DNA of 64,000 nt, taken from NCBI RefSeq assembly GCF_039954625.1, contig NZ_CP157199.1, forward strand, positions 682,001 through 746,000, written 5' to 3'. A program made the translations under genes and the position numbers. Position 1 is the stretch's first letter. Each line of letters begins with the position of its first letter. The notes beneath the pieces were generated by a model. That model was not told the DNA's origin. It ran no database searches and saw nothing but the letters and a program-made list of their open reading frames with translations. Source of the DNA: Pontimicrobium sp. SW4. Lineage in GTDB: Bacteria > Bacteroidota > Bacteroidia > Flavobacteriales > Flavobacteriaceae. Positions 12,111-29,888 of this stretch are shown piece after piece.

Positions 12111-13199
12111 ATGAAACATATACTAAATAAACAAATAAAATCACTTATTCTAGTGTGCATACTTAGCTGGATGAGTGGAACGATAGACCTACAAGCGCAA
12201 ACAACAATTTATGGTCCTTCTACAGCTAATGTCAATGATGTGGATTATTATAGTGTGAATATTAATGATGATATTTTCCATTATACTTGGACAGTGTATG
12301 GAGGAACCAAATCAAGCATACAGGAACAATCAGTAACTGTGACTTGGACATCTTCAGGTAGTAACTCTGTTGAGTATGATGCAGAGGGAGATTGGGATGC
12401 CTATTATGGTTCAAAGACGGTAACAGTAAGTAGTCCTCCAGCCACCCCGCCCATGCCTACAATAACCAATAACTGTGGGAACACAGTACTTACAAGAACC
12501 ACACCGCCAAGTGGAGAGACCTATTATTGGCAAAGTAGTAGTTCAGGTACCAGTATAGGTAATTCATCCGTCTCAGTGACAAGAACCACTGGAACTGTAT
12601 ACTATTTACGTTCCAAGAAAGGAAGTGTTTGGAGTTCAGCAAGGACAATTACTTATAGTATCACGCAAGGAACTATTTATTATGAAGATGCAGATGGTGA
12701 TACCTTTGGAGATCCAAATGTTACTACCATTAGTTGTACAGGAACTCCTGCTGGCTATGTTACAAATAGTAGTGATTCATGTCCAGAGAACGCTGGACCA
12801 GCGGCCAATAATGGATGTCCACTTGTAAATGCTTCCCCTGATGAAAACTATATATATACAATAGTGCCTCAAATTGAGGTGACAAGCATAAGTAGCATTA
12901 CAAATGACGACAATGCCATTAGAAATATCCAATATTTTGATGGATTAGGAAGAGCAAAACAAAGTATAGCTATTCAAGCAGGAAATGACCAAAAAGATAT
13001 TGTCACCCATATCGGTTATGATGCTATAGGAAGACAAAAAAAGGAGTTTCTGCCTTATGCTTCAGATAATTTTGCAGGACGAATAAACCCTAATGCTTCA
13101 ACCGATACTCAGGAGTATTATGACTTGGCTAAATATGAGAGTGATTTTCCAAGTATAACCCAGAGTAACATCAATGCCTTTTCAGAAGAAGGAATTTGA
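12111..13199 (+). CDS. RHS protein N-terminal part (DUF6443), separated by a frame break
   Basis: A 362-aa reading frame: signal peptide (LILVCILSWMSGTIDLQAQ), a PKD/Ig-like domain with WTVYGG and TYYWQSSS strands, a calcium-binding type-3 segment (YYEDADGDTFGDPN, then DSCPENAGPAANNGCP), and the DUF6443 start (IQYFDGLGRAKQSIAIQAG, IGYDAIGRQKKEFLPYA). It ends at a TGA (13,197-13,199) inside what should be one continuous RHS gene: the expected continuation, EASPLNRVLKQAAPG, lies in the +1 frame directly after. So this is the N-terminal half of a single RHS gene, split by one extra base, by a programmed +1 shift, or by a sequencing error near 13,185-13,197. Confidence 0.85.
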   Translation: MKHILNKQIKSLILVCILSWMSGTIDLQAQTTIYGPSTANVNDVDYYSVNINDDIFHYTWTVYGGTKSSIQEQSVTVTWTSSGSNSVEYDAEGDWDAYYGSKTVTVSSPPATPPMPTITNNCGNTVLTRTTPPSGETYYWQSSSSGTSIGNSSVSVTRTTGTVYYLRSKKGSVWSSARTITYSITQGTIYYEDADGDTFGDPNVTTISCTGTPAGYVTNSSDSCPENAGPAANNGCPLVNASPDENYIYTIVPQIEVTSISSITNDDNAIRNIQYFDGLGRAKQSIAIQAGNDQKDIVTHIGYDAIGRQKKEFLPYASDNFAGRINPNASTDTQEYYDLAKYESDFPSITQSNINAFSEEGI

Positions 13200-16100
13200 A
13201 GCCTCACCACTTAATAGGGTGTTAAAGCAAGCTGCTCCAGGAAAAGATTGGAAACTAGGAAATGGTCATGAAATAGAGTTTGATTATGGTTCAAATACAT
13301 CAACAGAAGTACGTAAGTATTCTGTTAGTACAAGTTTTGCTAATAATACCTACACGCCTACCTTAAATGGAGGTACAAGTTATTATGCTGCTGGAAAACT
13401 GTTTAAAACAGTGACTAAAGATGAAAATCATGATGGGACAACATCAAAACTAGACACCACTGAAGAGTTTAAAGATAAACAAGGCAGAGTCATTTTAAAA
13501 CGTACTTATGGGGAATCAGATTTAAACAGGGATGGTGATGTGTTGGATGCTGGTGAAAGTTCAGCGCAACACGATACGTATTACGTCTATGATAATTTTG
13601 GAAATCTAACCTATGTGTTGCCACCATTATCAGATGCTAATACCAATAAACCAACCTCTACCGAGTTAAATGATCTATGTTACCAATACAAATACGACCA
13701 TAGAAACAGGCTTATAGAAAAAAAGATCCCAGGCAAAGGTTGGGAGTATATTGTGTATGATGAATTAGATAGACCAGTTATGACACAGGATGCTGTTCAA
13801 CAACCAAACAAAGAATGGCTGGTAACCAAATATGATAAGTTGGGAAGAGTTGCATATACTGGGCTGTATACACATAGTTCTACAGTATCAGCGCAACATA
13901 CCATGCAATCACATTTTAATACGCAGAATAATTTAGACACAGAACTTTATGAAGAAAGAAAAGGAAGTACGGTAGATTATGATGATAGTTATTACTCAAA
14001 TAATAACTTTCCTAGCTCAGGTTTAGAATTGTTAACCATTAATTATTATGATGACTATAGTTTTGATTTAGCTGGATCTGCTCAACCTGAAAGTATCACA
14101 CATGCCTACAGTGTATCACTAACTACTAATGTTAAAAGTTTGGCTACTGGATCTAAAGTAAAGGTATTGGATGTCTCACCAGATAAATGGATTTCCTCAG
14201 TAATGTATTATGATGATAAGGCACGTCCAGTGTACACATATTCTAAAAATGCGTATTTAAATACAACTGATATTGTACAGAGTGATTTAGATTTTGTTGG
14301 AAAAGCATTAGAGGTGAAAACCACCCATAAAAAAACTGGAGAAACAGATTTAGTGACTATGGAAACCTTTACGTATGACCATGCTGGTCGTGTAACTAAA
14401 CAAACCCATAAAATTAATTCTGGTGCGGAAGAAGTTATTGCAGAAAACATCTATGACGAATTGGGACAATTAACAACCAAAGAAGTTGGGAATACAGTGA
14501 GCAATCCACTTCAAACAGTTAATTATACCTATAATGTTAGAGGCTGGTTAAAGCAAATTAATAATCCCGCTTCTTTGGGTACAGACTTGTTTGGGTTTAA
14601 AATTAATTACAATACTCAAGATCATGGAGGGACAGTACTCTATAATGGAAATATCTCTGAAACGGAATGGAAAACGGCGAATACCGATAGTAATTTAAAA
14701 TGGTATAAGTATGATTATGATGCGCTTAATAGACTTACTAGCGCCACTAGTATTTCAAGCAATTATCATTTAGACAAAGTAGTCTATGATCTTAATGGAA
14801 ATATTACCAAATTAAAAAGACAAGGGCATATTGTTGCTAACCCAGTAGCTACAAATAGTTCCCATTTTAATACTATGGATGATCTGGTGTATACTTATAA
14901 TACCAATAGCAACCAGCTTAAAAAAGTACTTGATAATGGAAATGATACATATGGGTTTAAAGATGGTAGTGATACTACCACAGAGTACACGTATGACGCC
15001 AATGGCAACATGCTAACTGATGCTAATAAGGGTATTTCATCGAATATTTCCTATAACCACTTAAATTTACCAACACTTGTGACCTTATCTTCAGGGAATA
15101 TTTCTTACATTTATGATGCCACTGGCGTAAAATTAAAGAAAACGGTGAGTACTGGTGCTACAACTAAATATGCTGGAAACTATATCTATGAGGATAGTGG
15201 TAGCGGTGATGTGTTAAAATTCTTTAACCACTCAGAAGGCTATGTAGAACCTGATGGCTCTGGTGGGTATAACTATGTATACCAATATAAAGACCATTTA
15301 GGGAATATTAGATTGAGTTATAAGGAAGATACTTCGGTTACTGAAGTGTCTGTGAATGAGGATTTTGCTTCAAGTACTAGTGGTTGGTCAACTCCTACTT
15401 CAAGTGGAGCTGGTATAAACAATACTAATGAAGAGCTAAACCTTACTTTAGTAAATAGATGGACTAGTACTAGTAAATATTTGACTATTACCCCTAATGT
15501 TCCTATTCATATAGAATTTGATTTTAAAAATGGTACAATGGACAAACCTGTATTTCTTGTGAGAGAACAGATTAATGGGGTTTGGGAACCTGGTGGAGAC
15601 AGAGATATAATATGGGATGTCCAAGATGGACATCACGTATTAGACTTAACGCTCACAGGAGATTTTATTAGATTGTATTTTGAGAAAGGTACTGGGAATG
15701 ACAATGGAACTGCTACCTCCTGTTATATAGATAACTTTAAGGTTACTCAAAATGGTCTTGAAATACAAGAAGAAAACAACTACTATCCTTTTGGGCTCAA
15801 ACACAAAGGTTACAATAACGTAATAAATGGCACAGAACATCCTTATAAGTATAATGGTGTTGAGTTAAATGAGAATTTAGGGCTTAATATTTATGAAACT
15901 TATGCAAGAGGTTATGACCCTGCTATTGGGAGATTTTTACAAATAGACCCTTTGGGAGAGTTAATTAATCAAATAGATAAAACACCCTATAATTTTGCTT
16001 GGAACAATCCTATTGCTTTTAATGACCCTGATGGTTTATGTCCAGATTGTCCAGACCCAGCTAATGCGACAGAGGGTCAAATTTACACTATTGATAATGG

Positions 16101-16722
16101 CAGTGAATATATATTTAACGGTACAGAATGGGAAAGGCATACTGTTGAAGAATTAGATGAAGTGGTAGTAGTTGCACCTTCTGGGAGTTCAGAAGAAGAT
16201 TCTTCTAACACCACAAGTGAAGCAAATGCAGGAACAGTTAGTGCAGTTGTTGCTACTGGAATTATTTTAAGTGAAGTGTCGACATCTGTAACACTTCCAT
16301 CTGCTACAGCCGTAGGAGGTGCTGCTGCAACAGGAGGTGTTGTTACTGGGTTTTTAGGAGTTACTGTTGGGCCACTTTTATATATGTCGTATATGTATCC
16401 TAATGGAATTACTGGACCAACTTACGATCAATTAAGGGCTGATCCATTTTTTCCAATAACAACACAAGATCCAAAAAATTATCCATCTCAACCTTCAAGT
16501 ATCACAGCTCCTCCAAATTTAACTCCTCCAGCTTATCAACCATTGACAGCGGAAGAGTTATTGACAGTCTCTGCTTATATTAATCAAATGGCAGCGGAGC
16601 ATAGAAAAAGGAGAGGCAGTAAGAAGAAGACAAATGACAAGCACACAAAAAGACGACCAGGAGGGGATGAAAAAAAGAAAAAACCAAGAAAAAGAGGCAA
16701 AAAATGGAAACCTCGCAAATAA
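13174..16722 (+). CDS. RHS polymorphic toxin body with tip supplied by the integrated element
   Basis: A 1,182-aa frame that continues the DUF6443 protein (EFEASPLNRVLKQAAPGKDW), through many YD-repeats (YDNFGNLTYVLPP, YDHRNRLIEKKIPGKG, YNVRGWLKQINNP, YDANGNMLTDANKGISSNIS), a jelly-roll-like insert (about 725-865), then the RHS core. The core motif PFGLKHKGYNN begins at residue 872 and marks the junction with the mobile unit. The cleavage-type motif NNPIAFNDPDGL lies at about 944-955. The tip (about 956-1182) has an acidic stretch, an Ala/Gly/Val-rich hydrophobic segment (about 1030-1065), a Pro-rich stretch and a very basic end with NDKHTKRRPGG. I do not recognise its toxin family. The ATG at 13,174 overlaps the upstream frame by 26 bp and could also be a reinitiation start. 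The gene to residue 871 is resident; the rest came with the element. Confidence 0.85.
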   Translation: MPFQKKEFEASPLNRVLKQAAPGKDWKLGNGHEIEFDYGSNTSTEVRKYSVSTSFANNTYTPTLNGGTSYYAAGKLFKTVTKDENHDGTTSKLDTTEEFKDKQGRVILKRTYGESDLNRDGDVLDAGESSAQHDTYYVYDNFGNLTYVLPPLSDANTNKPTSTELNDLCYQYKYDHRNRLIEKKIPGKGWEYIVYDELDRPVMTQDAVQQPNKEWLVTKYDKLGRVAYTGLYTHSSTVSAQHTMQSHFNTQNNLDTELYEERKGSTVDYDDSYYSNNNFPSSGLELLTINYYDDYSFDLAGSAQPESITHAYSVSLTTNVKSLATGSKVKVLDVSPDKWISSVMYYDDKARPVYTYSKNAYLNTTDIVQSDLDFVGKALEVKTTHKKTGETDLVTMETFTYDHAGRVTKQTHKINSGAEEVIAENIYDELGQLTTKEVGNTVSNPLQTVNYTYNVRGWLKQINNPASLGTDLFGFKINYNTQDHGGTVLYNGNISETEWKTANTDSNLKWYKYDYDALNRLTSATSISSNYHLDKVVYDLNGNITKLKRQGHIVANPVATNSSHFNTMDDLVYTYNTNSNQLKKVLDNGNDTYGFKDGSDTTTEYTYDANGNMLTDANKGISSNISYNHLNLPTLVTLSSGNISYIYDATGVKLKKTVSTGATTKYAGNYIYEDSGSGDVLKFFNHSEGYVEPDGSGGYNYVYQYKDHLGNIRLSYKEDTSVTEVSVNEDFASSTSGWSTPTSSGAGINNTNEELNLTLVNRWTSTSKYLTITPNVPIHIEFDFKNGTMDKPVFLVREQINGVWEPGGDRDIIWDVQDGHHVLDLTLTGDFIRLYFEKGTGNDNGTATSCYIDNFKVTQNGLEIQEENNYYPFGLKHKGYNNVINGTEHPYKYNGVELNENLGLNIYETYARGYDPAIGRFLQIDPLGELINQIDKTPYNFAWNNPIAFNDPDGLCPDCPDPANATEGQIYTIDNGSEYIFNGTEWERHTVEELDEVVVVAPSGSSEEDSSNTTSEANAGTVSAVVATGIILSEVSTSVTLPSATAVGGAAATGGVVTGFLGVTVGPLLYMSYMYPNGITGPTYDQLRADPFFPITTQDPKNYPSQPSSITAPPNLTPPAYQPLTAEELLTVSAYINQMAAEHRKRRGSKKKTNDKHTKRRPGGDEKKKKPRKRGKKWKPRK
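15787..15811 (+). other. Left junction (attL) in the RHS core
   Basis: Resident RHS sequence ending TACTATCC(T) meets unit sequence TTTGGGCTCAAACACAAAGG. From TTTGG (15,790) onward the sequence is identical to that starting at 21,780; upstream it differs. The codons read P-F-G-L-K-H-K-G, so the RHS frame is preserved across the junction. Confidence 0.85.
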
Positions 16723-16733
16723 AAAAGATAAAA

Positions 16734-17291
16734 ATGGAAAACAATTTATTAAAAAAAATATTTTCTGATTCAAAGAAACAGAAAACATTTATAAGTATAT
16801 ATTCTAACGAAGAAGATACTGACGTGTTTTCAATAGGAATAATTTGCAATTTTGATGATGACTTTGTTTTAATTAAGAAAGTAAGCCCTGAAGGTAATTT
16901 TGATGGCTTTTCAATATTATTGATAGAAGATATATATTCCATAGAATATGGAGATAAATATTTAAAAAAGATGCAACTTTCTATTAAAGAAGATATCATT
17001 AACATTAGTGATGACATACAAGATTTATTATTGTCTAATTTTAGATTTGATGATTTATTAAAACTTTGCTCTAAAAAACGATTTTTAGTATCTATAAATT
17101 CAGTTTACAATAGAAACTTTATAGGATATATAGAGGATTTTGACGGGGAAAATGTAATTATAAATAACGTAGATGAGTATAATGAAAATGATGGTTTTTC
17201 TTTTTTCAGAATTTTGGAGATTGAAAGAATTAGTCTTTTTGAGACAGAGTTAAAAACAATTACGAATATAAAGAAAGTAATAAATCAATAA
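16734..17291 (+). CDS. Candidate immunity protein for the RHS tip, copy 1
   Basis: A 185-aa acidic protein beginning 11 bp after the RHS stop; an earlier in-frame ATG at 16,704 would overlap the toxin gene and add ten basic residues. No signal peptide. It contains two similar halves: IGIICNFDDDFVLIKKVSPE with FDGFSILLIEDIYSIEYGD, and IGYIEDFDGENVIINNVDEY with NDGFSFFRILEIERISLFE, each a run of short beta strands around an acidic turn and a 'DGFS' motif, suggesting a duplicated small beta-barrel. Position directly behind a basic toxin tip, opposite charge and travelling with the tip on the same unit are the basis for calling it immunity; I do not recognise the family. Confidence 0.65.
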   Translation: MENNLLKKIFSDSKKQKTFISIYSNEEDTDVFSIGIICNFDDDFVLIKKVSPEGNFDGFSILLIEDIYSIEYGDKYLKKMQLSIKEDIINISDDIQDLLLSNFRFDDLLKLCSKKRFLVSINSVYNRNFIGYIEDFDGENVIINNVDEYNENDGFSFFRILEIERISLFETELKTITNIKKVINQ

Positions 17292-17308
17292 GAAATCATA
17301 AAGCATTA

Positions 17309-17337
17309 AAAGCCACAGCGAAAGTTGTGGTTTTTTT
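17309..17337 (+). terminator. Terminator after the immunity gene, copy 1
   Basis: Stem CCACA / TGTGG with an 8-nt loop, extended by A-T and G-T pairs, followed by seven T. It ends RHS-immunity transcription and its T-run overlaps the stop codon of the convergent XRE gene. Confidence 0.75.
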
Positions 17338-17665
17338 ATGCGTAAGTATTACGAGCTTTAGCGTCTCGAATTAATGCATTAATCGTAGTGAAAATATGCT
17401 CTCTATCTTCATTGTTCAGTTTTTGTAAACTCGTAACAACATCAACAATAGTTTTATCAAGTTCCAAATCAGATAAGCCAGTTAAATAATCCAAAGATAC
17501 TTCGAGCGCTTTAGCAATCTTAAATGCCGTCTCAATAGACGGTTTTACTTCATCACGTTCGTAACGTCCAATTACAGGAGCGTGCACACCAATCTGTTTG
17601 GCAAGTTCATCTTGCGACATCTTCCTTTTTTTACGAGTGATTAATAAGCGTTCACCAAACAACAT
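17336..17665 (-). CDS. XRE-family repressor of the element, copy 1
   Basis: A 109-aa regulator with one N-terminal Cro/CI-type helix-turn-helix (MSQDELAKQIGVHAPVIGRY, residues about 16-35, then ERDEVKPSIETAFKIAKALE) and a short C-terminal helix probably used for dimerisation. It is convergent with the immunity gene and divergent from the AAA+/recombinase genes, the normal position for a repressor that holds an element quiescent. Its start lies 142 bp from the AAA+ start, with inverted AGAACATA / TATGTTCT sites in between as plausible operators. Confidence 0.85.
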   Translation of the reverse strand: MLFGERLLITRKKRKMSQDELAKQIGVHAPVIGRYERDEVKPSIETAFKIAKALEVSLDYLTGLSDLELDKTIVDVVTSLQKLNNEDREHIFTTINALIRDAKARNTYA

Positions 17666-17742
17666 AAGTTCTAAATATATCAGTTAAATAAAGTAATACG
17701 TAAATATATAAAACATAAAGTATCTATCTGAATATTAAATTG

Positions 17743-17789
17743 TTTGATAAATAAGAACATATTTTATACTTTTGAACAATATATGTTCT
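17743..17789 (+). promoter_or_regulatory. Promoter and candidate operator for the recombination genes, copy 1
   Basis: TTTG at 17,743-17,746, a 20-bp spacer and TACTTTTG at 17,767-17,774 match the Bacteroidota -33/-7 consensus (TTTG, TAnnTTTG). An 8-bp inverted repeat AGAACATA (17,754-17,761) / TATGTTCT (17,782-17,789) brackets the -7 box, ideal for a repressor. A related AGTTCTAAA lies at 17,668-17,676 beside the XRE start. The promoter places transcription start near 17,780 and therefore supports the ATG at 17,808 for the next gene rather than the TTG at 17,772. Confidence 0.65.
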
Positions 17790-17807
17790 AAAAAATATTT
17801 TTCAACA

Positions 17808-19382
17808 ATGTTAGATACTACCAACGCAAACAACTACGCATACATCACAAAACATCTTGAAATCCACATCTTGGGCGGACTAAAGACCAATAAACTGGAG
17901 AGTTTACGAATTACATTATCTATACAAAAGCCGAAATCACATAACATCTTACGGCACAGCTTAGATTTATACAATGATAATCAAGCAGAAAAATTTACAA
18001 GAACAGTAGCAGAACGATTAGAAATAGGAACAAGTGTAGCACGTAAAACATTACAAGAGTTAACCAAAGAATTAGAGAATTACAGATTTTTATTAATAGA
18101 AAAGCATACACAAAATAACCAACCATACTCAAAAGAACTTAATGCAACTGAAATCAAATCAGCAGAAACCTTTTTAAAGAAGAAAGATTTACTAATTAAA
18201 ACTAATGAACTTATTGGAAAGTCTGGAGTTATTGGAGAACAGAATAATAGACTATTAATGTACTTGATATTTACGAGCAGAAAAACCAACAGTCCTTTAC
18301 ATTGTATCAGCTTGGGAAGTTCTGGAGTTGGTAAGACACATTTACAATCTAAAGTAGCAGAACTCATACCAGAAGAAGATAAAATAGAAATTACAGTATT
18401 ATCTGCAAATGCTTTTTATTACTTTAACAGAACAGAACTACAGCATAAATTAATATTGATTGAGGACTTGGACGGCGCAGAATCTGTACTCTATCCACTG
18501 CGAGAACTGCAATCCAAAAAGCGCATTACAAAAACAGTCGTCCATAAAGACACCAAAGGCAATACCAAAACAATCCATTTAACGGTTGAAGGTCCTGTAA
18601 GTGTTGCTGGTTGCACCACACAGGAAAGTATTTACGAAGATAACTCAAACCGTTCGTTCCTACTCTACATTGATGAAAGTGCAGAACAAGACCAAAGAAT
18701 TATGAACCACCAACGTTTTATGAGTGCTGGAAAAATCAACATACAAGAACAACACGCATCACGTGATTTATTATGCAATGTGCAACGTGTATTAAAACCG
18801 ATTAGAGTAATCAATCCTTATGCAGAATACTTGGAACTGCCACAATCTGTATTTAAACCAAGACGTACAAACTCACACTATTTACAGTTTATTGAAGCGA
18901 TTACATTTTATAAGCAATACCAAAGAGAAAAGAAATATGACGAACAAACAGGCGAAGAATTTATAGAAACCACAATCGAAGATATACAAGAAGCTAACGA
19001 ACTGATTACAGAAGTATTATTACGAAAATCTGATACCATAAACGGAGCAACAAGAAATCATTTAGAGAAGCTGAAAGACTACTTAAAAACCAATAACCAA
19101 ACGACTTTTACCAACGCAGAAATTAGAAGAAACTTACGTATAAAAGAAACCACTTTAAGGCGTTACAACTCACAATTGTTAGCCGAAAATTATATACAAA
19201 GAGTTAAGAAAGTAAAGACTAAAAGTTACTGTTTTGAAATAGTTGATGTTCAAGAATATGACACACTTAAAGAGCAGATAAACAAAGCATTGAAAAGCTG
19301 TATTGCAAAAATAGAACTCGCCATATCGCCACAAAGTCGCCACCAACAAAATGGCGAAGTTAAAACAAAGAAAGTCAGTTAA
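17808..19382 (+). CDS. P-loop (AAA+ / helicase-like) protein with C-terminal winged helix, copy 1
   Basis: A 524-aa cytoplasmic protein from the ATG at 17,808. Counting from an upstream in-frame TTG (12 residues earlier), Walker A is GSSGVGKT (about 182-189), Walker B LILIEDLD (about 227-234), and CTTQESIYEDNSNRSFL (about 281-297) looks like a sensor/arginine-finger region. The layout resembles the helicase half of Bacteroidota mobile-element primase-like proteins. The C-terminus (about 435-500) has a winged-helix pattern: FTNAEIRRNLRIKETTLRRY. It is the first gene of the promoter shared with the two recombinases (41-bp gap). Possible roles: target or partner remodelling during recombination, or replication of an excised circle. 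No primase catalytic motif was seen. Confidence 0.7.
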   Translation: MLDTTNANNYAYITKHLEIHILGGLKTNKLESLRITLSIQKPKSHNILRHSLDLYNDNQAEKFTRTVAERLEIGTSVARKTLQELTKELENYRFLLIEKHTQNNQPYSKELNATEIKSAETFLKKKDLLIKTNELIGKSGVIGEQNNRLLMYLIFTSRKTNSPLHCISLGSSGVGKTHLQSKVAELIPEEDKIEITVLSANAFYYFNRTELQHKLILIEDLDGAESVLYPLRELQSKKRITKTVVHKDTKGNTKTIHLTVEGPVSVAGCTTQESIYEDNSNRSFLLYIDESAEQDQRIMNHQRFMSAGKINIQEQHASRDLLCNVQRVLKPIRVINPYAEYLELPQSVFKPRRTNSHYLQFIEAITFYKQYQREKKYDEQTGEEFIETTIEDIQEANELITEVLLRKSDTINGATRNHLEKLKDYLKTNNQTTFTNAEIRRNLRIKETTLRRYNSQLLAENYIQRVKKVKTKSYCFEIVDVQEYDTLKEQINKALKSCIAKIELAISPQSRHQQNGEVKTKKVS

Positions 19383-19423
19383 TTAAATCCAACTCGCCAC
19401 ACAATCTTAAAAAACATCAAGAG

Positions 19424-20359
19424 ATGAAAAAATTAAAGCTACAAAACCACAGCTACAAACTCTTTGTTGCCAATTTTAAAGAGTGGTTAGACATACTTGG
19501 ATATGCAGAAACAACAGTCTATTACTTGCCAAACCACCTAAAAGAGTTCTTCCATTATTTAGAAAACAAGAACATTAATAATATCAATTTTATCACAGCA
19601 GAAACCGTAAAGACCTATTACAAACAACTGCAACAGCGTAGCAATACCAAAACAAGCGGAGCATTAAGCAAAAGCTACTTAAACAAACACCAACAAGCTC
19701 TAAAAAAGTTTAAGGAATATTTACAGAACCATAATCACAAAGGCATACAAATACATCTAAAATCCGAGACCAATCCAACCGAAGAACGAGTAAATATATT
19801 AACCATATCAGAAGTTAAAGAACTCTTTGAAGCTACTGAATTTAGCCATACAGAAAGTAGATTTAAGTTAAGAGACAAAGCCATTTTAACGATTTTATAT
19901 AGTTGTGGATTACGCAGAAACGAAGCAGTACATTTAGATACGAGCGATATCCTTTTTGATAAAGAACGAGTGTACGTGAGAAAAGGAAAAAACTACAAAG
20001 AACGATTTGTGCCAATCAATCGAAAAAACGCAGAAATATTAGAAGATTACATTTACGAATCTCGACCAGAATTTTACCAAAGTAATTTAAGTGAAGCCTT
20101 GTTTATCAATAAAAACGGAACACGATTACAAGGAATGAGTTATGCCAACAGATTAAAGACAATCGTAAAAGCAACCAATAATAAATCGATACAAAATAAG
20201 CAGATTACACTTCATACATTAAGACACTCGATAGCAACACACTTGTTGCAATACAACGTCGATTTAGAAAGCATAAAAACCTTTTTAGGCCATAGTTCTT
20301 TGGAATCTACACAAATCTATACGCACTTACTTAAAACGATAGAAAATGATAACATATAG
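19424..20359 (+). CDS. Tyrosine recombinase 1 of the element, copy 1
   Basis: A 311-aa tyrosine recombinase with an N-terminal SAM-like core-binding domain (about 10-105) and a complete catalytic set: Arg in CGLRRNEAVHL (R164), Lys in VRKGKNYKERFVP (about K187), HTLRHSIATHLL (H264, R267), LGHSS (H290) and the nucleophile in STQIYTH (Y299). Size and motifs are XerC/XerD-like. Its last 14 bases overlap the start of the second recombinase, implying translational coupling and equal amounts of the two proteins, as expected of a heteromeric recombinase acting on a two-half-site core. Confidence 0.92.
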   Translation: MKKLKLQNHSYKLFVANFKEWLDILGYAETTVYYLPNHLKEFFHYLENKNINNINFITAETVKTYYKQLQQRSNTKTSGALSKSYLNKHQQALKKFKEYLQNHNHKGIQIHLKSETNPTEERVNILTISEVKELFEATEFSHTESRFKLRDKAILTILYSCGLRRNEAVHLDTSDILFDKERVYVRKGKNYKERFVPINRKNAEILEDYIYESRPEFYQSNLSEALFINKNGTRLQGMSYANRLKTIVKATNNKSIQNKQITLHTLRHSIATHLLQYNVDLESIKTFLGHSSLESTQIYTHLLKTIENDNI

Positions 20360-21230
20360 CAATTATTTAGAACAACAGAACTATAGCAAAACAACCATAG
20401 AAAGCTACACAAAATCAATCGAAACCTTTTTAAAATGGTGCAAACGAAATCATACCAAAGCTGAATTAGTTGATTATAAAACTATCCTAAAATATATCAA
20501 GTATTTACAGCGGAAGAACAGAAGCAAAAGAACCGTAAAACATCAAATAGGAATTACCAAAAGTTACTTTAAATATCTACTATCAGAGAATTACAGAATA
20601 GACAATCCAATCGAAGATGTAAACATAAAAGGCGTAAAAAGAACAATCAATTACAATCTTTTAGAAGCTGACGAATTAGAGGATTTATATTACTCTTTTG
20701 AAACCGAAAACATTAAAGACAAGTATCACAAACTAACAGCAAAACGAAATAAAGTTATTGTTGGCTTAATCGTCTATCAAGGTTTACGAACCACAGATTT
20801 AGGCAACTTAAAGTTAGAACATTTACAACTCTCAAAAGGTAAAATCTATGTTCCAAGTACCAGGAAAAGCAACGCAAGAGAACTGGAGCTAAAACCTTGG
20901 CAAATAATGGAATTTATAGAATATACCAACGAAGTTAGAACAGCAATACAAAAGCGAACCAACAATTATACAGAACAGCTTTTTCCTCTCAATACAAGAT
21001 TTAGTACAATCACGTATCACATCAACAAACGATTGAAGACATATAACCATAAAGTAAAAGACTTGAAACAGATTAGAGCAAGTGTAATCACAAATTGGTT
21101 AGGGCAATATAACTTGCGGAAAGTTCAATATTTAGCTGGACATCGTTATATAAGTTCCACCGAAAAATATGTACAAGACGATTTAGAAAACCTGCACGAA
21201 ATCGTAAACAACTTCCATCCAATAAACTGA
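20346..21230 (+). CDS. Tyrosine recombinase 2 of the element, copy 1
   Basis: A 294-aa second tyrosine recombinase, N-terminal core-binding domain (about 1-90) then catalytic domain with QGLRTTDL (R148), PSTRKSNAREL (K174), LKQIRASVITNWL (R244), LAGHRYIS (H266) and STEKYVQ (Y275). The usual HxxR His is Lys here (K241), a substitution tolerated in some family members, so it is probably active but atypical. It overlaps recombinase 1 by 14 bp. Two unequal recombinases would suit the two different half-sites around the TTTGG core. Confidence 0.9.
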   Translation: MITYSNYLEQQNYSKTTIESYTKSIETFLKWCKRNHTKAELVDYKTILKYIKYLQRKNRSKRTVKHQIGITKSYFKYLLSENYRIDNPIEDVNIKGVKRTINYNLLEADELEDLYYSFETENIKDKYHKLTAKRNKVIVGLIVYQGLRTTDLGNLKLEHLQLSKGKIYVPSTRKSNARELELKPWQIMEFIEYTNEVRTAIQKRTNNYTEQLFPLNTRFSTITYHINKRLKTYNHKVKDLKQIRASVITNWLGQYNLRKVQYLAGHRYISSTEKYVQDDLENLHEIVNNFHPIN

Positions 21231-21358
21231 ATAAATCCACGCAAAGTAAATCCAGTATTCTCGTTCTACTTCGACAAGCTCAGCAACCACTCAAAAGCCT
21301 CTGTATTTACTTTGCTTCCTCGCCAACGCTCGGAAATCAACCGCCTAAATCTTCATCT

Positions 21359-21395
21359 TTTTAAAACGTTTGCTTCCTCTGAAAACGTTTTAAAA
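21359..21395. repeat. 13-bp perfect inverted repeat, copy 1
   Basis: TTTTAAAACGTTT and AAACGTTTTAAAA separated by 11 nt (GCTTCCTCTGA). No T-run of terminator type follows, so it may be a protein-binding or structural element; it is also 129 bp behind the recombinase 2 stop and could end its transcript. Confidence 0.65.
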
Positions 21396-21523
21396 GTTGA
21401 TGTAACAGAGGTTGGAAATGCGGTGGAGTTGCATCAGCTTTTAAAATGAAACAAACGAAGTGCGTTAGCTATCCGCAAACTTGCTCAAAAAAGCGTCGGA
21501 AGTCAGGCGTGAAACGGAAGTAT

Positions 21524-21587
21524 TTTACATAGTGTGCTTATGTTACAGAAACCGAATGAATGCTGACATAAGAGCACATTATGTAAA
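21524..21587. repeat. Long imperfect inverted repeat, copy 1
   Basis: Arms of about 25 nt (TTTACATAGTGTGCTTATGT... and ...ACATAAGAGCACATTATGTAAA) with a 14-nt centre pair almost completely, with one mismatch and small bulges. It may fold as a hairpin in single-stranded DNA or RNA. Confidence 0.65.
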
Positions 21588-21773
21588 CATATCGTGGCAA
21601 AGGAAGCCGATAAAAGACAGAGGATTTTTGCAGACAAAAAACTGGGTTTTATTGGCGTGGAAATAGTCAGAAAAACCTATCTTTACGATACGTTCTTTTA
21701 AATTTTTTGAGCAGTTTTTTTGGAATGATACCGAATGAAAGTGCGCCAAAGCTGGATTTTTTGCATAAAGTTT

Positions 21774-21801
21774 TAACCCTTTGGGCTCAAACACAAAGGT
21801 T
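21774..21801 (+). other. Unit-unit junction: presumed joined-end (attP-like) site
   Basis: The end of copy 1 (TTTTAACCC) meets the start of copy 2 (TTTGGGCTCAAACACAAAGG), the sequence a circular form would carry. Imperfect half-sites AACC-C-TTTG (21,775-21,783) and CAAAGGTT (21,794-21,801) face each other across 10 bp, the geometry of a tyrosine-recombinase core. The in-frame TAA at 21,774-21,776 directly precedes the P-F-G-L codons. Confidence 0.7.
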
Positions 21802-22712
21802 ACAATAACGTAATAAATGGCACAGAACATCCTTATAAGTATAATGGTGTTGAGTTAAATGAGAATTTAGGGCTTAATATTTATGAAACTTATGCAAGAG
21901 GTTATGACCCTGCTATTGGGAGATTTTTACAAATAGACCCTTTGGGAGAGTTAATTAATCAAATAGATAAAACACCCTATAATTTTGCTTGGAACAATCC
22001 TATTGCTTTTAATGACCCTGATGGTTTATGTCCAGATTGTCCAGACCCAGCTAATGCGACAGAGGGTCAAATTTACACTATTGATAATGGCAGTGAATAT
22101 ATATTTAACGGTACAGAATGGGAAAGGCATACTGTTGAAGAATTAGATGAAGTGGTAGTAGTTGCACCTTCTGGGAGTTCAGAAGAAGATTCTTCTAACA
22201 CCACAAGTGAAGCAAATGCAGGAACAGTTAGTGCAGTTGTTGCTACTGGAATTATTTTAAGTGAAGTGTCGACATCTGTAACACTTCCATCTGCTACAGC
22301 CGTAGGAGGTGCTGCTGCAACAGGAGGTGTTGTTACTGGGTTTTTAGGAGTTACTGTTGGGCCACTTTTATATATGTCGTATATGTATCCTAATGGAATT
22401 ACTGGACCAACTTACGATCAATTAAGGGCTGATCCATTTTTTCCAATAACAACACAAGATCCAAAAAATTATCCATCTCAACCTTCAAGTATCACAGCTC
22501 CTCCAAATTTAACTCCTCCAGCTTATCAACCATTGACAGCGGAAGAGTTATTGACAGTCTCTGCTTATATTAATCAAATGGCAGCGGAGCATAGAAAAAG
22601 GAGAGGCAGTAAGAAGAAGACAAATGACAAGCACACAAAAAGACGACCAGGAGGGGATGAAAAAAAGAAAAAACCAAGAAAAAGAGGCAAAAAATGGAAA
22701 CCTCGCAAATAA
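21777..22712 (+). pseudogene. Silent duplicate of the RHS core and toxin tip, copy 2
   Basis: Open frame of 311 aa from PFGLKHKGYNN to the basic toxin end, identical in translation to residues 872-1182 of the resident-fused protein. It follows a TAA codon, lacks the RHS body and has no credible start: the first candidate, TTG at 21,942, would delete most of the core. It is therefore a stored, unexpressed tip unless transcription and translation enter from an unseen signal. Loss of copy 1 by recombination between the two copies would put this tip on the RHS body unchanged. Confidence 0.75.
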
Positions 22713-22723
22713 AAAAGATAAAA

Positions 22724-23281
22724 ATGGAAAACAATTTATTAAAAAAAATATTTTCTGATTCAAAGAAACAGAAAACATTTATAAGTATATATTCTAACGA
22801 AGAAGATACTGACGTGTTTTCAATAGGAATAATTTGCAATTTTGATGATGACTTTGTTTTAATTAAGAAAGTAAGCCCTGAAGGTAATTTTGATGGCTTT
22901 TCAATATTATTGATAGAAGATATATATTCCATAGAATATGGAGATAAATATTTAAAAAAGATGCAACTTTCTATTAAAGAAGATATCATTAACATTAGTG
23001 ATGACATACAAGATTTATTATTGTCTAATTTTAGATTTGATGATTTATTAAAACTTTGCTCTAAAAAACGATTTTTAGTATCTATAAATTCAGTTTACAA
23101 TAGAAACTTTATAGGATATATAGAGGATTTTGACGGGGAAAATGTAATTATAAATAACGTAGATGAGTATAATGAAAATGATGGTTTTTCTTTTTTCAGA
23201 ATTTTGGAGATTGAAAGAATTAGTCTTTTTGAGACAGAGTTAAAAACAATTACGAATATAAAGAAAGTAATAAATCAATAA
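22724..23281 (+). CDS. Candidate immunity protein, copy 2
   Basis: Translation identical to the copy at 16,734: 185 aa, acidic, with two similar beta-rich halves each ending in a 'DGFS' segment. Here the gene follows the silent tip, so no RHS-operon transcript reaches it across the copy 1 terminator and the recombinase operon unless read-through occurs. If expressed by read-through it would double the immunity dose without extra toxin. Start chosen at the ATG just after the tip stop codon; the ATG at 22,694 is the alternative. Confidence 0.6.
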   Translation: MENNLLKKIFSDSKKQKTFISIYSNEEDTDVFSIGIICNFDDDFVLIKKVSPEGNFDGFSILLIEDIYSIEYGDKYLKKMQLSIKEDIINISDDIQDLLLSNFRFDDLLKLCSKKRFLVSINSVYNRNFIGYIEDFDGENVIINNVDEYNENDGFSFFRILEIERISLFETELKTITNIKKVINQ

Positions 23282-23298
23282 GAAATCATAAAGCATTA

Positions 23299-23327
23299 AA
23301 AGCCACAGCGAAAGTTGTGGTTTTTTT
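23299..23327 (+). terminator. Terminator after the immunity gene, copy 2
   Basis: Same CCACA / TGTGG stem and T-run as at 17,309. Confidence 0.72.
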
Positions 23328-23655
23328 ATGCGTAAGTATTACGAGCTTTAGCGTCTCGAATTAATGCATTAATCGTAGTGAAAATATGCTCTCTATCTTC
23401 ATTGTTCAGTTTTTGTAAACTCGTAACAACATCAACAATAGTTTTATCAAGTTCCAAATCAGATAAGCCAGTTAAATAATCCAAAGATACTTCGAGCGCT
23501 TTAGCAATCTTAAATGCCGTCTCAATAGACGGTTTTACTTCATCACGTTCGTAACGTCCAATTACAGGAGCGTGCACACCAATCTGTTTGGCAAGTTCAT
23601 CTTGCGACATCTTCCTTTTTTTACGAGTGATTAATAAGCGTTCACCAAACAACAT
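23326..23655 (-). CDS. XRE-family repressor of the element, copy 2
   Basis: 109 aa, translation identical to the regulator at 17,336, with the same N-terminal helix-turn-helix and divergent position to the AAA+ gene. Two gene copies would raise repressor dose and, if it silences the recombinases, could stabilise the tandem array. The protein made here acts in trans on both copies of the promoter. Confidence 0.83.
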   Translation of the reverse strand: MLFGERLLITRKKRKMSQDELAKQIGVHAPVIGRYERDEVKPSIETAFKIAKALEVSLDYLTGLSDLELDKTIVDVVTSLQKLNNEDREHIFTTINALIRDAKARNTYA

Positions 23656-23732
23656 AAGTTCTAAATATATCAGTTAAATAAAGTAATACGTAAATATATA
23701 AAACATAAAGTATCTATCTGAATATTAAATTG

Positions 23733-23779
23733 TTTGATAAATAAGAACATATTTTATACTTTTGAACAATATATGTTCT
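23733..23779 (+). promoter_or_regulatory. Promoter and candidate operator, copy 2
   Basis: TTTG, 20-bp spacer, TACTTTTG, and the AGAACATA / TATGTTCT inverted repeat, as in copy 1. Confidence 0.63.
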
Positions 23780-23797
23780 AAAAAATATTTTTCAACA

Positions 23798-25372
23798 ATG
23801 TTAGATACTACCAACGCAAACAACTACGCATACATCACAAAACATCTTGAAATCCACATCTTGGGCGGACTAAAGACCAATAAACTGGAGAGTTTACGAA
23901 TTACATTATCTATACAAAAGCCGAAATCACATAACATCTTACGGCACAGCTTAGATTTATACAATGATAATCAAGCAGAAAAATTTACAAGAACAGTAGC
24001 AGAACGATTAGAAATAGGAACAAGTGTAGCACGTAAAACATTACAAGAGTTAACCAAAGAATTAGAGAATTACAGATTTTTATTAATAGAAAAGCATACA
24101 CAAAATAACCAACCATACTCAAAAGAACTTAATGCAACTGAAATCAAATCAGCAGAAACCTTTTTAAAGAAGAAAGATTTACTAATTAAAACTAATGAAC
24201 TTATTGGAAAGTCTGGAGTTATTGGAGAACAGAATAATAGACTATTAATGTACTTGATATTTACGAGCAGAAAAACCAACAGTCCTTTACATTGTATCAG
24301 CTTGGGAAGTTCTGGAGTTGGTAAGACACATTTACAATCTAAAGTAGCAGAACTCATACCAGAAGAAGATAAAATAGAAATTACAGTATTATCTGCAAAT
24401 GCTTTTTATTACTTTAACAGAACAGAACTACAGCATAAATTAATATTGATTGAGGACTTGGACGGCGCAGAATCTGTACTCTATCCACTGCGAGAACTGC
24501 AATCCAAAAAGCGCATTACAAAAACAGTCGTCCATAAAGACACCAAAGGCAATACCAAAACAATCCATTTAACGGTTGAAGGTCCTGTAAGTGTTGCTGG
24601 TTGCACCACACAGGAAAGTATTTACGAAGATAACTCAAACCGTTCGTTCCTACTCTACATTGATGAAAGTGCAGAACAAGACCAAAGAATTATGAACCAC
24701 CAACGTTTTATGAGTGCTGGAAAAATCAACATACAAGAACAACACGCATCACGTGATTTATTATGCAATGTGCAACGTGTATTAAAACCGATTAGAGTAA
24801 TCAATCCTTATGCAGAATACTTGGAACTGCCACAATCTGTATTTAAACCAAGACGTACAAACTCACACTATTTACAGTTTATTGAAGCGATTACATTTTA
24901 TAAGCAATACCAAAGAGAAAAGAAATATGACGAACAAACAGGCGAAGAATTTATAGAAACCACAATCGAAGATATACAAGAAGCTAACGAACTGATTACA
25001 GAAGTATTATTACGAAAATCTGATACCATAAACGGAGCAACAAGAAATCATTTAGAGAAGCTGAAAGACTACTTAAAAACCAATAACCAAACGACTTTTA
25101 CCAACGCAGAAATTAGAAGAAACTTACGTATAAAAGAAACCACTTTAAGGCGTTACAACTCACAATTGTTAGCCGAAAATTATATACAAAGAGTTAAGAA
25201 AGTAAAGACTAAAAGTTACTGTTTTGAAATAGTTGATGTTCAAGAATATGACACACTTAAAGAGCAGATAAACAAAGCATTGAAAAGCTGTATTGCAAAA
25301 ATAGAACTCGCCATATCGCCACAAAGTCGCCACCAACAAAATGGCGAAGTTAAAACAAAGAAAGTCAGTTAA
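23798..25372 (+). CDS. P-loop (AAA+ / helicase-like) protein with winged helix, copy 2
   Basis: 524 aa, translation identical to the protein at 17,808: Walker A GSSGVGKT, Walker B LILIEDLD, C-terminal winged helix. All motifs are intact, so this copy is not decaying. It heads the same three-gene recombination operon. Confidence 0.7.
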   Translation: MLDTTNANNYAYITKHLEIHILGGLKTNKLESLRITLSIQKPKSHNILRHSLDLYNDNQAEKFTRTVAERLEIGTSVARKTLQELTKELENYRFLLIEKHTQNNQPYSKELNATEIKSAETFLKKKDLLIKTNELIGKSGVIGEQNNRLLMYLIFTSRKTNSPLHCISLGSSGVGKTHLQSKVAELIPEEDKIEITVLSANAFYYFNRTELQHKLILIEDLDGAESVLYPLRELQSKKRITKTVVHKDTKGNTKTIHLTVEGPVSVAGCTTQESIYEDNSNRSFLLYIDESAEQDQRIMNHQRFMSAGKINIQEQHASRDLLCNVQRVLKPIRVINPYAEYLELPQSVFKPRRTNSHYLQFIEAITFYKQYQREKKYDEQTGEEFIETTIEDIQEANELITEVLLRKSDTINGATRNHLEKLKDYLKTNNQTTFTNAEIRRNLRIKETTLRRYNSQLLAENYIQRVKKVKTKSYCFEIVDVQEYDTLKEQINKALKSCIAKIELAISPQSRHQQNGEVKTKKVS

Positions 25373-25413
25373 TTAAATCCAACTCGCCACACAATCTTAA
25401 AAAACATCAAGAG

Positions 25414-26349
25414 ATGAAAAAATTAAAGCTACAAAACCACAGCTACAAACTCTTTGTTGCCAATTTTAAAGAGTGGTTAGACATACTTGGATATGCAGAA
25501 ACAACAGTCTATTACTTGCCAAACCACCTAAAAGAGTTCTTCCATTATTTAGAAAACAAGAACATTAATAATATCAATTTTATCACAGCAGAAACCGTAA
25601 AGACCTATTACAAACAACTGCAACAGCGTAGCAATACCAAAACAAGCGGAGCATTAAGCAAAAGCTACTTAAACAAACACCAACAAGCTCTAAAAAAGTT
25701 TAAGGAATATTTACAGAACCATAATCACAAAGGCATACAAATACATCTAAAATCCGAGACCAATCCAACCGAAGAACGAGTAAATATATTAACCATATCA
25801 GAAGTTAAAGAACTCTTTGAAGCTACTGAATTTAGCCATACAGAAAGTAGATTTAAGTTAAGAGACAAAGCCATTTTAACGATTTTATATAGTTGTGGAT
25901 TACGCAGAAACGAAGCAGTACATTTAGATACGAGCGATATCCTTTTTGATAAAGAACGAGTGTACGTGAGAAAAGGAAAAAACTACAAAGAACGATTTGT
26001 GCCAATCAATCGAAAAAACGCAGAAATATTAGAAGATTACATTTACGAATCTCGACCAGAATTTTACCAAAGTAATTTAAGTGAAGCCTTGTTTATCAAT
26101 AAAAACGGAACACGATTACAAGGAATGAGTTATGCCAACAGATTAAAGACAATCGTAAAAGCAACCAATAATAAATCGATACAAAATAAGCAGATTACAC
26201 TTCATACATTAAGACACTCGATAGCAACACACTTGTTGCAATACAACGTCGATTTAGAAAGCATAAAAACCTTTTTAGGCCATAGTTCTTTGGAATCTAC
26301 ACAAATCTATACGCACTTACTTAAAACGATAGAAAATGATAACATATAG
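25414..26349 (+). CDS. Tyrosine recombinase 1, copy 2
   Basis: 311 aa, translation identical to the protein at 19,424 with the full R-K-HxxR-H-Y set. It overlaps recombinase 2 by 14 bp. Retention of an intact copy fits a recent duplication. Confidence 0.9.
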   Translation: MKKLKLQNHSYKLFVANFKEWLDILGYAETTVYYLPNHLKEFFHYLENKNINNINFITAETVKTYYKQLQQRSNTKTSGALSKSYLNKHQQALKKFKEYLQNHNHKGIQIHLKSETNPTEERVNILTISEVKELFEATEFSHTESRFKLRDKAILTILYSCGLRRNEAVHLDTSDILFDKERVYVRKGKNYKERFVPINRKNAEILEDYIYESRPEFYQSNLSEALFINKNGTRLQGMSYANRLKTIVKATNNKSIQNKQITLHTLRHSIATHLLQYNVDLESIKTFLGHSSLESTQIYTHLLKTIENDNI

Positions 26350-27220
26350 CAATTATTTAGAACAACAGAACTATAGCAAAACAACCATAGAAAGCTACAC
26401 AAAATCAATCGAAACCTTTTTAAAATGGTGCAAACGAAATCATACCAAAGCTGAATTAGTTGATTATAAAACTATCCTAAAATATATCAAGTATTTACAG
26501 CGGAAGAACAGAAGCAAAAGAACCGTAAAACATCAAATAGGAATTACCAAAAGTTACTTTAAATATCTACTATCAGAGAATTACAGAATAGACAATCCAA
26601 TCGAAGATGTAAACATAAAAGGCGTAAAAAGAACAATCAATTACAATCTTTTAGAAGCTGACGAATTAGAGGATTTATATTACTCTTTTGAAACCGAAAA
26701 CATTAAAGACAAGTATCACAAACTAACAGCAAAACGAAATAAAGTTATTGTTGGCTTAATCGTCTATCAAGGTTTACGAACCACAGATTTAGGCAACTTA
26801 AAGTTAGAACATTTACAACTCTCAAAAGGTAAAATCTATGTTCCAAGTACCAGGAAAAGCAACGCAAGAGAACTGGAGCTAAAACCTTGGCAAATAATGG
26901 AATTTATAGAATATACCAACGAAGTTAGAACAGCAATACAAAAGCGAACCAACAATTATACAGAACAGCTTTTTCCTCTCAATACAAGATTTAGTACAAT
27001 CACGTATCACATCAACAAACGATTGAAGACATATAACCATAAAGTAAAAGACTTGAAACAGATTAGAGCAAGTGTAATCACAAATTGGTTAGGGCAATAT
27101 AACTTGCGGAAAGTTCAATATTTAGCTGGACATCGTTATATAAGTTCCACCGAAAAATATGTACAAGACGATTTAGAAAACCTGCACGAAATCGTAAACA
27201 ACTTCCATCCAATAAACTGA
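26336..27220 (+). CDS. Tyrosine recombinase 2, copy 2
   Basis: 294 aa, translation identical to the protein at 20,346, including the Lys in place of the usual HxxR His and the tyrosine at residue 275. It is the last gene before the non-coding right end of the element and the right attachment junction. Confidence 0.88.
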   Translation: MITYSNYLEQQNYSKTTIESYTKSIETFLKWCKRNHTKAELVDYKTILKYIKYLQRKNRSKRTVKHQIGITKSYFKYLLSENYRIDNPIEDVNIKGVKRTINYNLLEADELEDLYYSFETENIKDKYHKLTAKRNKVIVGLIVYQGLRTTDLGNLKLEHLQLSKGKIYVPSTRKSNARELELKPWQIMEFIEYTNEVRTAIQKRTNNYTEQLFPLNTRFSTITYHINKRLKTYNHKVKDLKQIRASVITNWLGQYNLRKVQYLAGHRYISSTEKYVQDDLENLHEIVNNFHPIN

Positions 27221-27769
27221 ATAAATCCACGCAAAGTAAATCCAGTATTCTCGTTCTACTTCGACAAGCTCAGCAACCACTCAAAAGCCTCTGTATTTAC
27301 TTTGCTTCCTCGCCAACGCTCGGAAATCAACCGCCTAAATCTTCATCTTTTTAAAACGTTTGCTTCCTCTGAAAACGTTTTAAAAGTTGATGTAACAGAG
27401 GTTGGAAATGCGGTGGAGTTGCATCAGCTTTTAAAATGAAACAAACGAAGTGCGTTAGCTATCCGCAAACTTGCTCAAAAAAGCGTCGGAAGTCAGGCGT
27501 GAAACGGAAGTATTTTACATAGTGTGCTTATGTTACAGAAACCGAATGAATGCTGACATAAGAGCACATTATGTAAACATATCGTGGCAAAGGAAGCCGA
27601 TAAAAGACAGAGGATTTTTGCAGACAAAAAACTGGGTTTTATTGGCGTGGAAATAGTCAGAAAAACCTATCTTTACGATACGTTCTTTTAAATTTTTTGA
27701 GCAGTTTTTTTGGAATGATACCGAATGAAAGTGCGCCAAAGCTGGATTTTTTGCATAAAGTTTTAACCC
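27221..27769. other. Non-coding, structured right end of the element, copy 2
   Basis: Same 549-bp tail as copy 1, with the 13-bp inverted repeat at 27,349-27,385 and the long hairpin at 27,514-27,577. It ends at the right junction with displaced RHS sequence. Confidence 0.6.
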
Positions 27770-27794
27770 TTTGGCTTAAAACATAAAGGGTATA
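27764..27794 (+). other. Right junction (attR) with the displaced RHS tip
   Basis: Element sequence TTTTAACCC is followed by TTTGGCTTAAAACATAAAGG, which codes F-G-L-K-H-K-G with codons unlike those of the unit (TTTGGGCTCAAACACAAAGG). The shared bases are TTTGG, plus CC one base upstream. Joining 15,789 to 27,770 rebuilds an uninterrupted RHS core, the presumed empty site (attB). The right half-site here is CATAAAGGGTATA. Confidence 0.85.
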
Positions 27795-28726: not shown

Positions 28727-28731
28727 ATAAA

Positions 28732-29690: not shown

Positions 29691-29888
29691 ATGGCAGAAA
29701 CAATACCAAAGCTAAGTTTCATAATGCGTAGTTATAGTACAGCAGGTAATTATTTATCATCACAAATGGAGAAAACCAGTATTCAATTTGCGAAAATTGT
29801 ATCAGTCGTTGTTTTACTGTTCTATTTATTAATAATACTGGTTCTCCTTTTTGCTAAATTTCTAAGGGATTTTAATAATTTTACTTAG
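29691..29888 (+). CDS. Small single-pass membrane protein, unknown
   Basis: 65 aa: a polar N-terminus followed by one strong hydrophobic segment (IVSVVVLLFYLLIILVLLFA, residues about 36-55) and a short charged tail. It is isolated between the RHS locus and the AraC gene. The stop codon lies inside a perfect hairpin. No family recognised; the long hydrophobic helix supports a real small protein, but size leaves doubt. Confidence 0.5.
   Translation: MAETIPKLSFIMRSYSTAGNYLSSQMEKTSIQFAKIVSVVVLLFYLLIILVLLFAKFLRDFNNFT

Follow-up and report, generated by a model that had tools for sequence, protein, structure and literature searches.

A probable tip-carrying integrative element at the Phe-Gly codons of an RHS gene in Pontimicrobium sp. 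SW4

The exchange of toxin tips in enterobacterial rhs genes has been explained by homologous recombination; the same work proposed circular tip intermediates, left their origin open and, in the accessible part of its text, knew of no integrase associated with Rhs (Jackson 2009, PMC2935791). Rhs-associated integrases are reported from the bee gut bacteria Snodgrassella and Gilliamella, where the available text suggests that they may aid in capturing Rhs sequences (PMC5727410). Here we analyse a stretch of 64,000 nucleotides from Pontimicrobium sp. SW4 (contig NZ_CP157199.1, positions 682,001 to 746,000 of the forward strand; hereafter the window), in which a resident RHS gene continues in frame, at its Phe-Gly codons, into two tandem copies of a 5,990-bp element. 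Each copy brings a new RHS core and tip, a small gene, a repressor, an AAA+ protein and two tyrosine recombinases. The element is very probably an integrative unit that encodes its own means of insertion: its recombinases are predicted to target short RHS codon motifs that are conserved, and the tip it brings would take the place of the old one.

Two identical units inside a resident RHS gene

The two copies are identical base for base, and the pentamer TTTGG, which lies in the Phe-Gly codons, stands at the left end of the first, at the joint between them and at the right end of the second (Table 1 collects the coordinates). An exact 5,990-bp duplication bounded by 5 bp in Phe-Gly codons is no chance match. 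Leftward of TTTGG the bases agree with the resident gene, and rightward they agree with the element. The consensus of the right end across 34 joints of the class that uses the PFG motif is AAAAAAcGCaTaaACTAcTATCCnTTTGG, and the window's own end fits it only partially; the last bases of this consensus encode Asn-Tyr-Tyr-Pro-Phe-Gly and equal the codons of the resident gene at the site. The initial annotation had taken 15,790–27,769 as one unit of 5,990 bp; the size stands, but the span holds two such units. The presence of two copies, the multiple RHS target motifs, the MCM-like model of the AAA+ protein and the arrays in relatives had all been missed at that stage.

The open reading frame (ORF) at 13,174–16,722 leads from the Tyr-Tyr-Pro of the resident gene into the Phe-Gly-Leu-Lys of the unit and ends with a stop at 16,722. 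Upstream of the site 875 codons are open, counted stop to stop, and the frame continues through the new tip. The resident gene had been described as continuous, which is true from 13,174 to the site but not of its N-terminal part (the DUF6443 region), which lies in a separate frame at 12,111–13,199, so that the gene may be split or frameshifted. On the other side of the two copies, the frame PFGLKHKGYNGNV... is open from 27,770 to a stop at 28,726, with its first listed start codon at 27,899. The old tip does resume where it had been placed, with PFGLKHKGYN respelled in other codons. Five RHS core matches were found in the source genome, three of them within this locus, and the product of the gene that follows the old tip gives a weak DUF922 match below the cut-off.

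Relatives, target motifs and exact insertions

Scoring of 8,000 candidates gave at least 6,077 homologues of the AAA+ protein, and a genome scan yielded 70 named loci as the closest relatives. With the source genome counted each time, the protein is present in 12 of 395 genomes sampled from the phylum and 25 of 397 from the family, and a profile search found it in 31 of 395 of the class. One query protein found no homologue in viral contigs, and plasmids gave no megablast match. Merging the named, phylum and family loci with the window left 94 distinct elements. Copies that share one 600-bp AAA+ stretch were merged (L047 and L048 count once), the family loci are 20 stretches from 16 of the 25 genomes, and the phylum loci come from all 11 other genomes; the class-survey loci, one stretch each from 20 of the 31 genomes, stand outside the 94. 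Matches with fewer than 300 aligned AAA+ residues are omitted from the counts, hence the exclusion of L137, L138 and L139.

An RHS core lies 5′ of the AAA+ gene on the same strand in 52 of the 60 distinct elements with at least 4 kb of upstream sequence (median distance over all copies, 2.2 kb), and RHS coding resumes within 4 kb after the second recombinase in 44 of the 52 with at least 4 kb downstream. A looser count that accepts short stretches gives 70 of 78 upstream and 55 of 62 downstream. The 20 further class-survey loci have an RHS core upstream in 13 cases and on at least one side in 19. Both recombinases are present after 96 of the 99 AAA+ copies that have more than 3 kb following.

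The resumption of RHS coding is confined to a few discrete model positions: the PFG motif in most elements, and otherwise YDxFGN, YDALNR, YDxNGN, GNYIYEN, a place near model position 455, and places within the core (the motif names are our reading). These targets follow the kinship of the recombinases. On a tree of recombinase A from the 50 elements that have both an alignment row and a site label, 8 changes of target motif suffice, where 7 is the minimum; shuffled labels take 15.8 on average, and none of 200 shuffles went as low as 8; long branches leave the deepest part of this tree unsure. The kinship crosses orders, as the place of Saccharicrinis in it indicates.

Three cases bear on how the element arrives. 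The same element occurs twice in one genome, as L029 and L030 (99.9% over 7.9 kb), each time in a different RHS gene, and the flanks diverge just upstream of the site; after L029 comes another RHS tip, and after L030 the apparent start of another copy at the contig end. L048 is the element of L047 (99.95% over 7.3 kb) inside a conserved small gene that is not RHS, is present in 65 of 80 family genomes and has a neighbour read as pheS. Its left part ends NEFFVTYYA and its right part resumes DNKIYEK, where the intact homologue L169 reads NEFFVTYYADNKIYEK. In L169 this site agrees with the RHS motif at 16 of 23 bases, a likeness that is weak alone; 26 of 837,725 sequence windows, RHS genes included, reach such a match. 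L023 splits an amidohydrolase gene between SDSI and WALAETAF, and 9 of 9 inspected intact homologues (120 listed) are uninterrupted there. Neither L048 nor L023 has cost its host gene a single residue, or added one, by comparison with intact homologues. Exact insertions in two housekeeping genes therefore favour site-specific recombination, and recombination between RHS cores, judged from these sequences, cannot account for them.

The site-specific module at the core codons that the initial annotation proposed thus finds support in the discrete joints, the recombinase tree and the exact insertions. The accompanying expectation, that homologues would not sit at unrelated sites, holds for the 52 of 60 elements with an RHS core upstream but not for the other eight, several of which are joined to other secreted proteins. 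The two closer relatives in housekeeping genes also depart from it, yet by exact insertions, which fit site-specific recombination better.

Elements are often stacked. Among 66 copies that come first in their locus, 17 are cut by a contig end and 49 are decidable; in 34 of these 49 the tip shares one open frame with the sequence before it, over 380 to 2,591 upstream codons (one of them, L059, starts close to its own site). The 22 inner copies either meet a stop 2–51 codons before the site or start at the model position of their own motif. Because first copies are mostly open and inner copies are cut at the site, the first tip alone is fused in frame as a rule. Near-identical neighbouring copies occur on 16 contigs, the window's counted; those of L042 differ at 45 of 5,277 bases, and L019 repeats 2.9 kb only. 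On contig CANMXP010000027 a single RHS gene is followed by four successive units, which carry two different tips between them (L009, L020, L021). In L137 a truncated AAA+ copy is followed by four consecutive RHS core fragments and resembles a decayed tip array.

The tips themselves are diverse. At loci in plus orientation, 60 tips form 41 clusters, 34 of them single, and related tips were found in 2 of the 23 pairs whose recombinases A are 85–99.5% identical. Up to 17 of the 60 match Pfam, in 13 families that include Ntox10, TreTu, EndoU, CDI nuclease, peptidase M91 (4 tips) and cell-wall hydrolases. A small ORF follows 57 of the 60 tips, in relatives and window together, and at most 15 of the 54 small genes scanned match a family, among them Imm26, Imm27, Imm-NTF2-2 and CdiI.

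The eight elements that have no RHS core upstream carry AAA+ proteins at most 56% identical to the query. Distant modules (L095, L100, L131 and L132) are joined to secreted proteins other than RHS, and the AAA+ protein of L095 and L100 bears primase domains. The partners of these four include proteins that look from their sequences like peptidoglycan hydrolases and one that has an AHH nuclease end (Pfam). In a deep clade (L102, L148, L151, L152, L156 and L159) the right joint falls before the YRYGFNGQEKD motif of the RHS core, and five of its genomes, read farther upstream, have an RHS core at 12–23 kb in three cases and none in two. Three deep-clade elements look larger, with other cargo. Because distant modules join other proteins and the RHS core of the deep clade lies so far away, tip swapping may be the specialisation of one branch within a larger group.

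Some single loci deserve mention. The distant module L134, which has its two recombinases in opposite order, stands behind a VgrG-like gene and an RHS gene whose end reads as GIY-YIG-like; from this context, type VI RHS effectors may be targets too. The AAA+ reading of L130 is in two pieces about 1.2 kb apart, and something may be inserted there. The left end of L014, near 4450, adjoins unknown bases and a non-RHS gene and may be a third insertion outside RHS genes. Small accessory genes lie between recombinase B and the right end in L023 (13778–14068), L014 (10064–10600) and L094 (11256–11813) and look like toxin-antitoxin or phage-antirepressor genes.

Genes and noncoding DNA of the unit

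Profile searches bear out the gene content that the initial annotation had listed: core, tip, small gene, repressor, AAA+ protein and two tyrosine recombinases. The Rhs_assc_core match scores 53.4 bits against a cut-off of 32.5, and the repressor matches the RstR-family model NF041951 with 95 bits against a cut-off of 80. The small gene, which overlaps the end of the tip, is a candidate immunity gene. A fold search found the MCM fold in the ATPase domain of the AAA+ protein, whose model resembles MCM helicases, and the protein is a predicted MCM-like helicase. It has no significant match in Pfam, NCBIfam or PADLOC and one weak PHROG match (1.2e-4), and comparison of its sequence profile with solved structures gave nothing significant; its homologues carry the precomputed Pfam label PF27228, though our own Pfam scan did not return it. 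Recombinase A has the catalytic R-K-H-R-H-Y set of tyrosine recombinases (R164, K189, H264, R267, H290 and Y299), each residue present in 89 to 91 of 91 alignment rows, and in recombinase B R244, H266 and Y275 are conserved (89-row alignment). The six scanned proteins of the 5,990-bp unit gave no match to relaxase or conjugation genes, and scanned unit proteins gave no convincing match to phage structural or packaging genes. Of the proteins compared with anti-phage families only the repressor matched, to helix-turn-helix models.

About 550 bp of each unit are noncoding and contain two hairpins. Pairs of TTACATA-type arms, such as form hairpin 1, occur 104 times in relatives and window and not at all in any of 5 block shuffles; the shuffle permutes blocks of three bases, and the pattern was picked after the data were seen. 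The arms read TTACATAA-spacer-TTATAA, with a spacer that varies between elements and complementarity that is largely retained. The two arms are equally long in 20 of the 32 arm types, every one mismatched at position 12, and differ in length in the remaining 12, the window's included. The arms resemble dif half-sites, and the pairs could be a folded single-strand site or an origin. The hairpins were also considered as the insertion site and set aside, as identical arm types occur in elements with differing targets. No known RNA family reached its gathering threshold in 15,000–30,000.

Table 1. Features of the locus, in window coordinates
Feature	Coordinates	Strand	Basis or remark
Resident RHS gene: portion that shares its frame with the new tip and ends at the site between YYP and FG	13174..15789	+	open frame; RHS_repeat, DUF6443 and Rhs core matches
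Left junction, crossover block TTTGG (Phe-Gly codons)	15790..15794	+	flank comparison
Element copy 1, 5,990 bp	15790..21779	+	identical to copy 2
New RHS core with its tip (predicted toxin end), continuing the frame of the resident gene	15790..16722	+	TIGR03696, 53.4 bits
Candidate immunity gene, overlapping the tip's end	16704..17291	+	position only
RstR-family repressor	17336..17665	-	NF041951
AAA+ protein, predicted MCM-like helicase	17772..19382	+	
Tyrosine recombinase A (XerD-like)	19424..20359	+	Phage_integrase, 4.6e-38
Tyrosine recombinase B	20346..21230	+	Phage_integrase, 2.3e-12
Hairpin 2, noncoding	21347..21405	+	predicted single-strand fold; similar hairpins in relatives
Hairpin 1, inverted pair of TTACATA-type arms	21523..21587	+	predicted single-strand fold
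Right-end box and TTTGG (at 21,780) at the tandem joint	21757..21784	+	34-joint consensus AAAAAAcGCaTaaACTAcTATCCnTTTGG
Element copy 2, 5,990 bp; tip out of frame with any RHS gene	21780..27769	+	
Hairpin 1 of copy 2	27513..27577	+	
Right junction TTTGG	27770..27774	+	
Displaced old RHS tip, severed from resident gene	27770..28726	+	
Gene after old tip, possibly its former immunity gene	28732..29310	+	position only

Proposed cycle, alternatives and known systems

In the cycle that we propose, the element would form a circle with a joint (element end to TTTGGGCTC) that resembles the RHS motif, and this circle would recombine with the motif in the host gene; tandem arrays would arise when a circle enters either junction of a resident copy. 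The RHS protein would contain the first tip only, further tips would be a silent stock, and excision would restore an older tip. Protection of the new owner is the predicted role of the small gene. Copying of the circle would fall to the MCM-like helicase (in longer relatives, together with the primase), and the repressor would hold the element quiet. On a wider scale we think it probable, with somewhat more reserve, that Bacteroidota harbour a class of mobile elements dedicated to toxin-tip exchange, each bringing a tip and its antidote behind a target-like junction, each recombinase clade having its own conserved scaffold motif, and circles copied by primase-helicases stacking as reloadable magazines of silent tips. 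If so, tip exchange would be one self-driven step in which a dedicated element fuses tip and antidote in frame, and the silent tip arrays would be explained. Attachment sites made of conserved codons would also illustrate a way for an element to choose targets that are always in frame. With its thousands of AAA+ homologues, the element family is not rare.

Several findings weigh against this reading. The upstream frame is short in 15 of the 49 decidable first copies, among them L020, which is internal to a longer array, and the two elements that lie in other genes, L023 and L048. An RHS core was not found upstream in 8 of 60 elements, nor within 4 kb downstream in 8 of 52; among these misses L095, L100 and L131 are joined to other proteins, L023 is in another gene, L014 borders unknown bases of the contig on its left, and L094 and L128 are unexplained. 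L051 and one copy of L099 have neither recombinase. Because most tips and small genes match no Pfam family, their roles are mostly assigned by position, and this applies to the window's tip and small gene, which have no Pfam match themselves. The window's RHS gene may not work, with its N-terminus in another frame, and no uninterrupted copy of it was found via the old tip, for whose DNA any matches in 59 other genomes do not exceed 113 bases. The tandem copies could partly be assembly artefacts. Excision, circles and transfer are inferred, none having been observed, and the exchange of tips between near-identical modules needs a further step outside the model. The second contig of the genome (L073, 7 kb) was considered as a circular form of the element and rejected, its ORFs reading as ordinary chromosomal genes.

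RecA-type homologous recombination between RHS cores, with C-terminal displacement, might swap the tips instead, and the recombinase genes would then be passengers of tip arrays. This is the published model for enterobacterial rhs, as the accessible portions of PMC2935791 and PMC3967940 present it; RHS cores are alike, array duplications could come from such recombination, and tips reassort between close modules as it would allow. A crossover that maps to 5 bp with differing codons just outside, a target motif that varies with the recombinase clade and elements lodged in two housekeeping genes all argue against it, as does the presence of the recombinase pair between two RHS joints in nearly every unit. 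The 5-bp crossover block and the two housekeeping insertions led us to set core recombination aside as the main route, for which we consider it very unlikely. We give very little credence to local tandem amplification of one long-resident island without present mobility. The window's copies are indeed identical and adjacent, with no other copy in the source genome, but the patchy distribution over family and class genomes, a recombinase kinship that reaches Saccharicrinis in another order, and the finding of one element at two loci of one genome and of another in a non-RHS gene all speak for movement.

Alternatively, the unit could be a satellite of a phage, or an element akin to CTX phage, for which RHS genes are no more than hot spots of integration; its tip would then be a by-product, much as phages integrating into icd replace the end of that gene. 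The RstR-family repressor, the tandem arrays, the predicted helicase, the primase in relatives and the paired arms recalling dif would all suit such an element, as would the three deep relatives whose RHS core lies only at 12–23 kb upstream and which appear larger, with other cargo. No structural gene was matched among the unit proteins, however, and the scan of viral contigs with one query protein was empty. A passive gene end would also need neither the variety of tips nor the small gene behind 57 of 60 of them, some with known toxin or immunity domains. We regard this origin as unlikely, though it deserves attention, and return to an integrative unit that exchanges tips by its own recombinases.

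The open literature that we searched, most subscription papers being outside its scope, gave no description recognisable as a tip-carrying integrative element; the initial annotation likewise knew of none, and novelty is claimed provisionally. Parts of the element have counterparts elsewhere. XerC/D-type recombinases stand beside some polyimmunity loci, according to the part of that study available (PMC3482391). Strand-biased circularizing elements, described from Gammaproteobacteria only, with core genes intA, tfp, intB and srap and a median size of 15.7 kb, share an operon of multiple recombinase-type genes and have a double-stranded circular intermediate, whereas the accessible text mentions no toxin-tip function (PMC10214605). 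The rAID clusters of Bacteroidales, arrays of co-oriented orphan immunity genes linked to one tyrosine recombinase, share that link within Bacteroidota; RHS tips are not described in the portion available (PMC12247911), and the window has one small gene per unit, with two recombinases, an AAA+ protein and a repressor.

Integrons offer a likeness in expressing only the leading unit of an array and in site-specific tyrosine recombination. The present units differ in bringing their own recombinases, both of them after 96 of 99 AAA+ copies, where integron cassettes have none of their own and share one integrase, and in having a coding motif as target. Neither recombinase reaches the cut-off of the integron integrase model TIGR02249 (265 bits; 96.4 for A and 17.2 for B). 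In shufflons the tyrosine recombinase Rci changes the C-terminus of a surface protein by inverting local segments; the present units would likewise alter a C-terminus through tyrosine recombinases, but they insert, and come with a small gene, a helicase and a repressor. CTX phage has the repressor RstR, borrows the host's XerCD and inserts at dif. An RstR-family repressor, tandem arrays and paired dif-like arms in one strand recall it, whereas the unit brings recombinases of its own and lies inserted at codons of RHS genes.

The integrases of bee gut bacteria resemble those studied here in lying near Rhs genes, and the accessible text describes no unit, boundary, site or in-frame insertion for them (PMC5727410). 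Closest of all is the displacement of Rhs C-termini, in which a new tip joins the core and old tips are pushed downstream as silent arrays; the window shows the same arrangement, a core with a new tip and the old tip as a downstream fragment. It differs from that model, as far as the available text sets it out, in the recombinase pair present in nearly every unit and in the 5-bp crossover block (PMC2935791). If the class of tip-exchanging elements is real, it would supply the integrase-driven circle that was missing from the displacement model of 2009.

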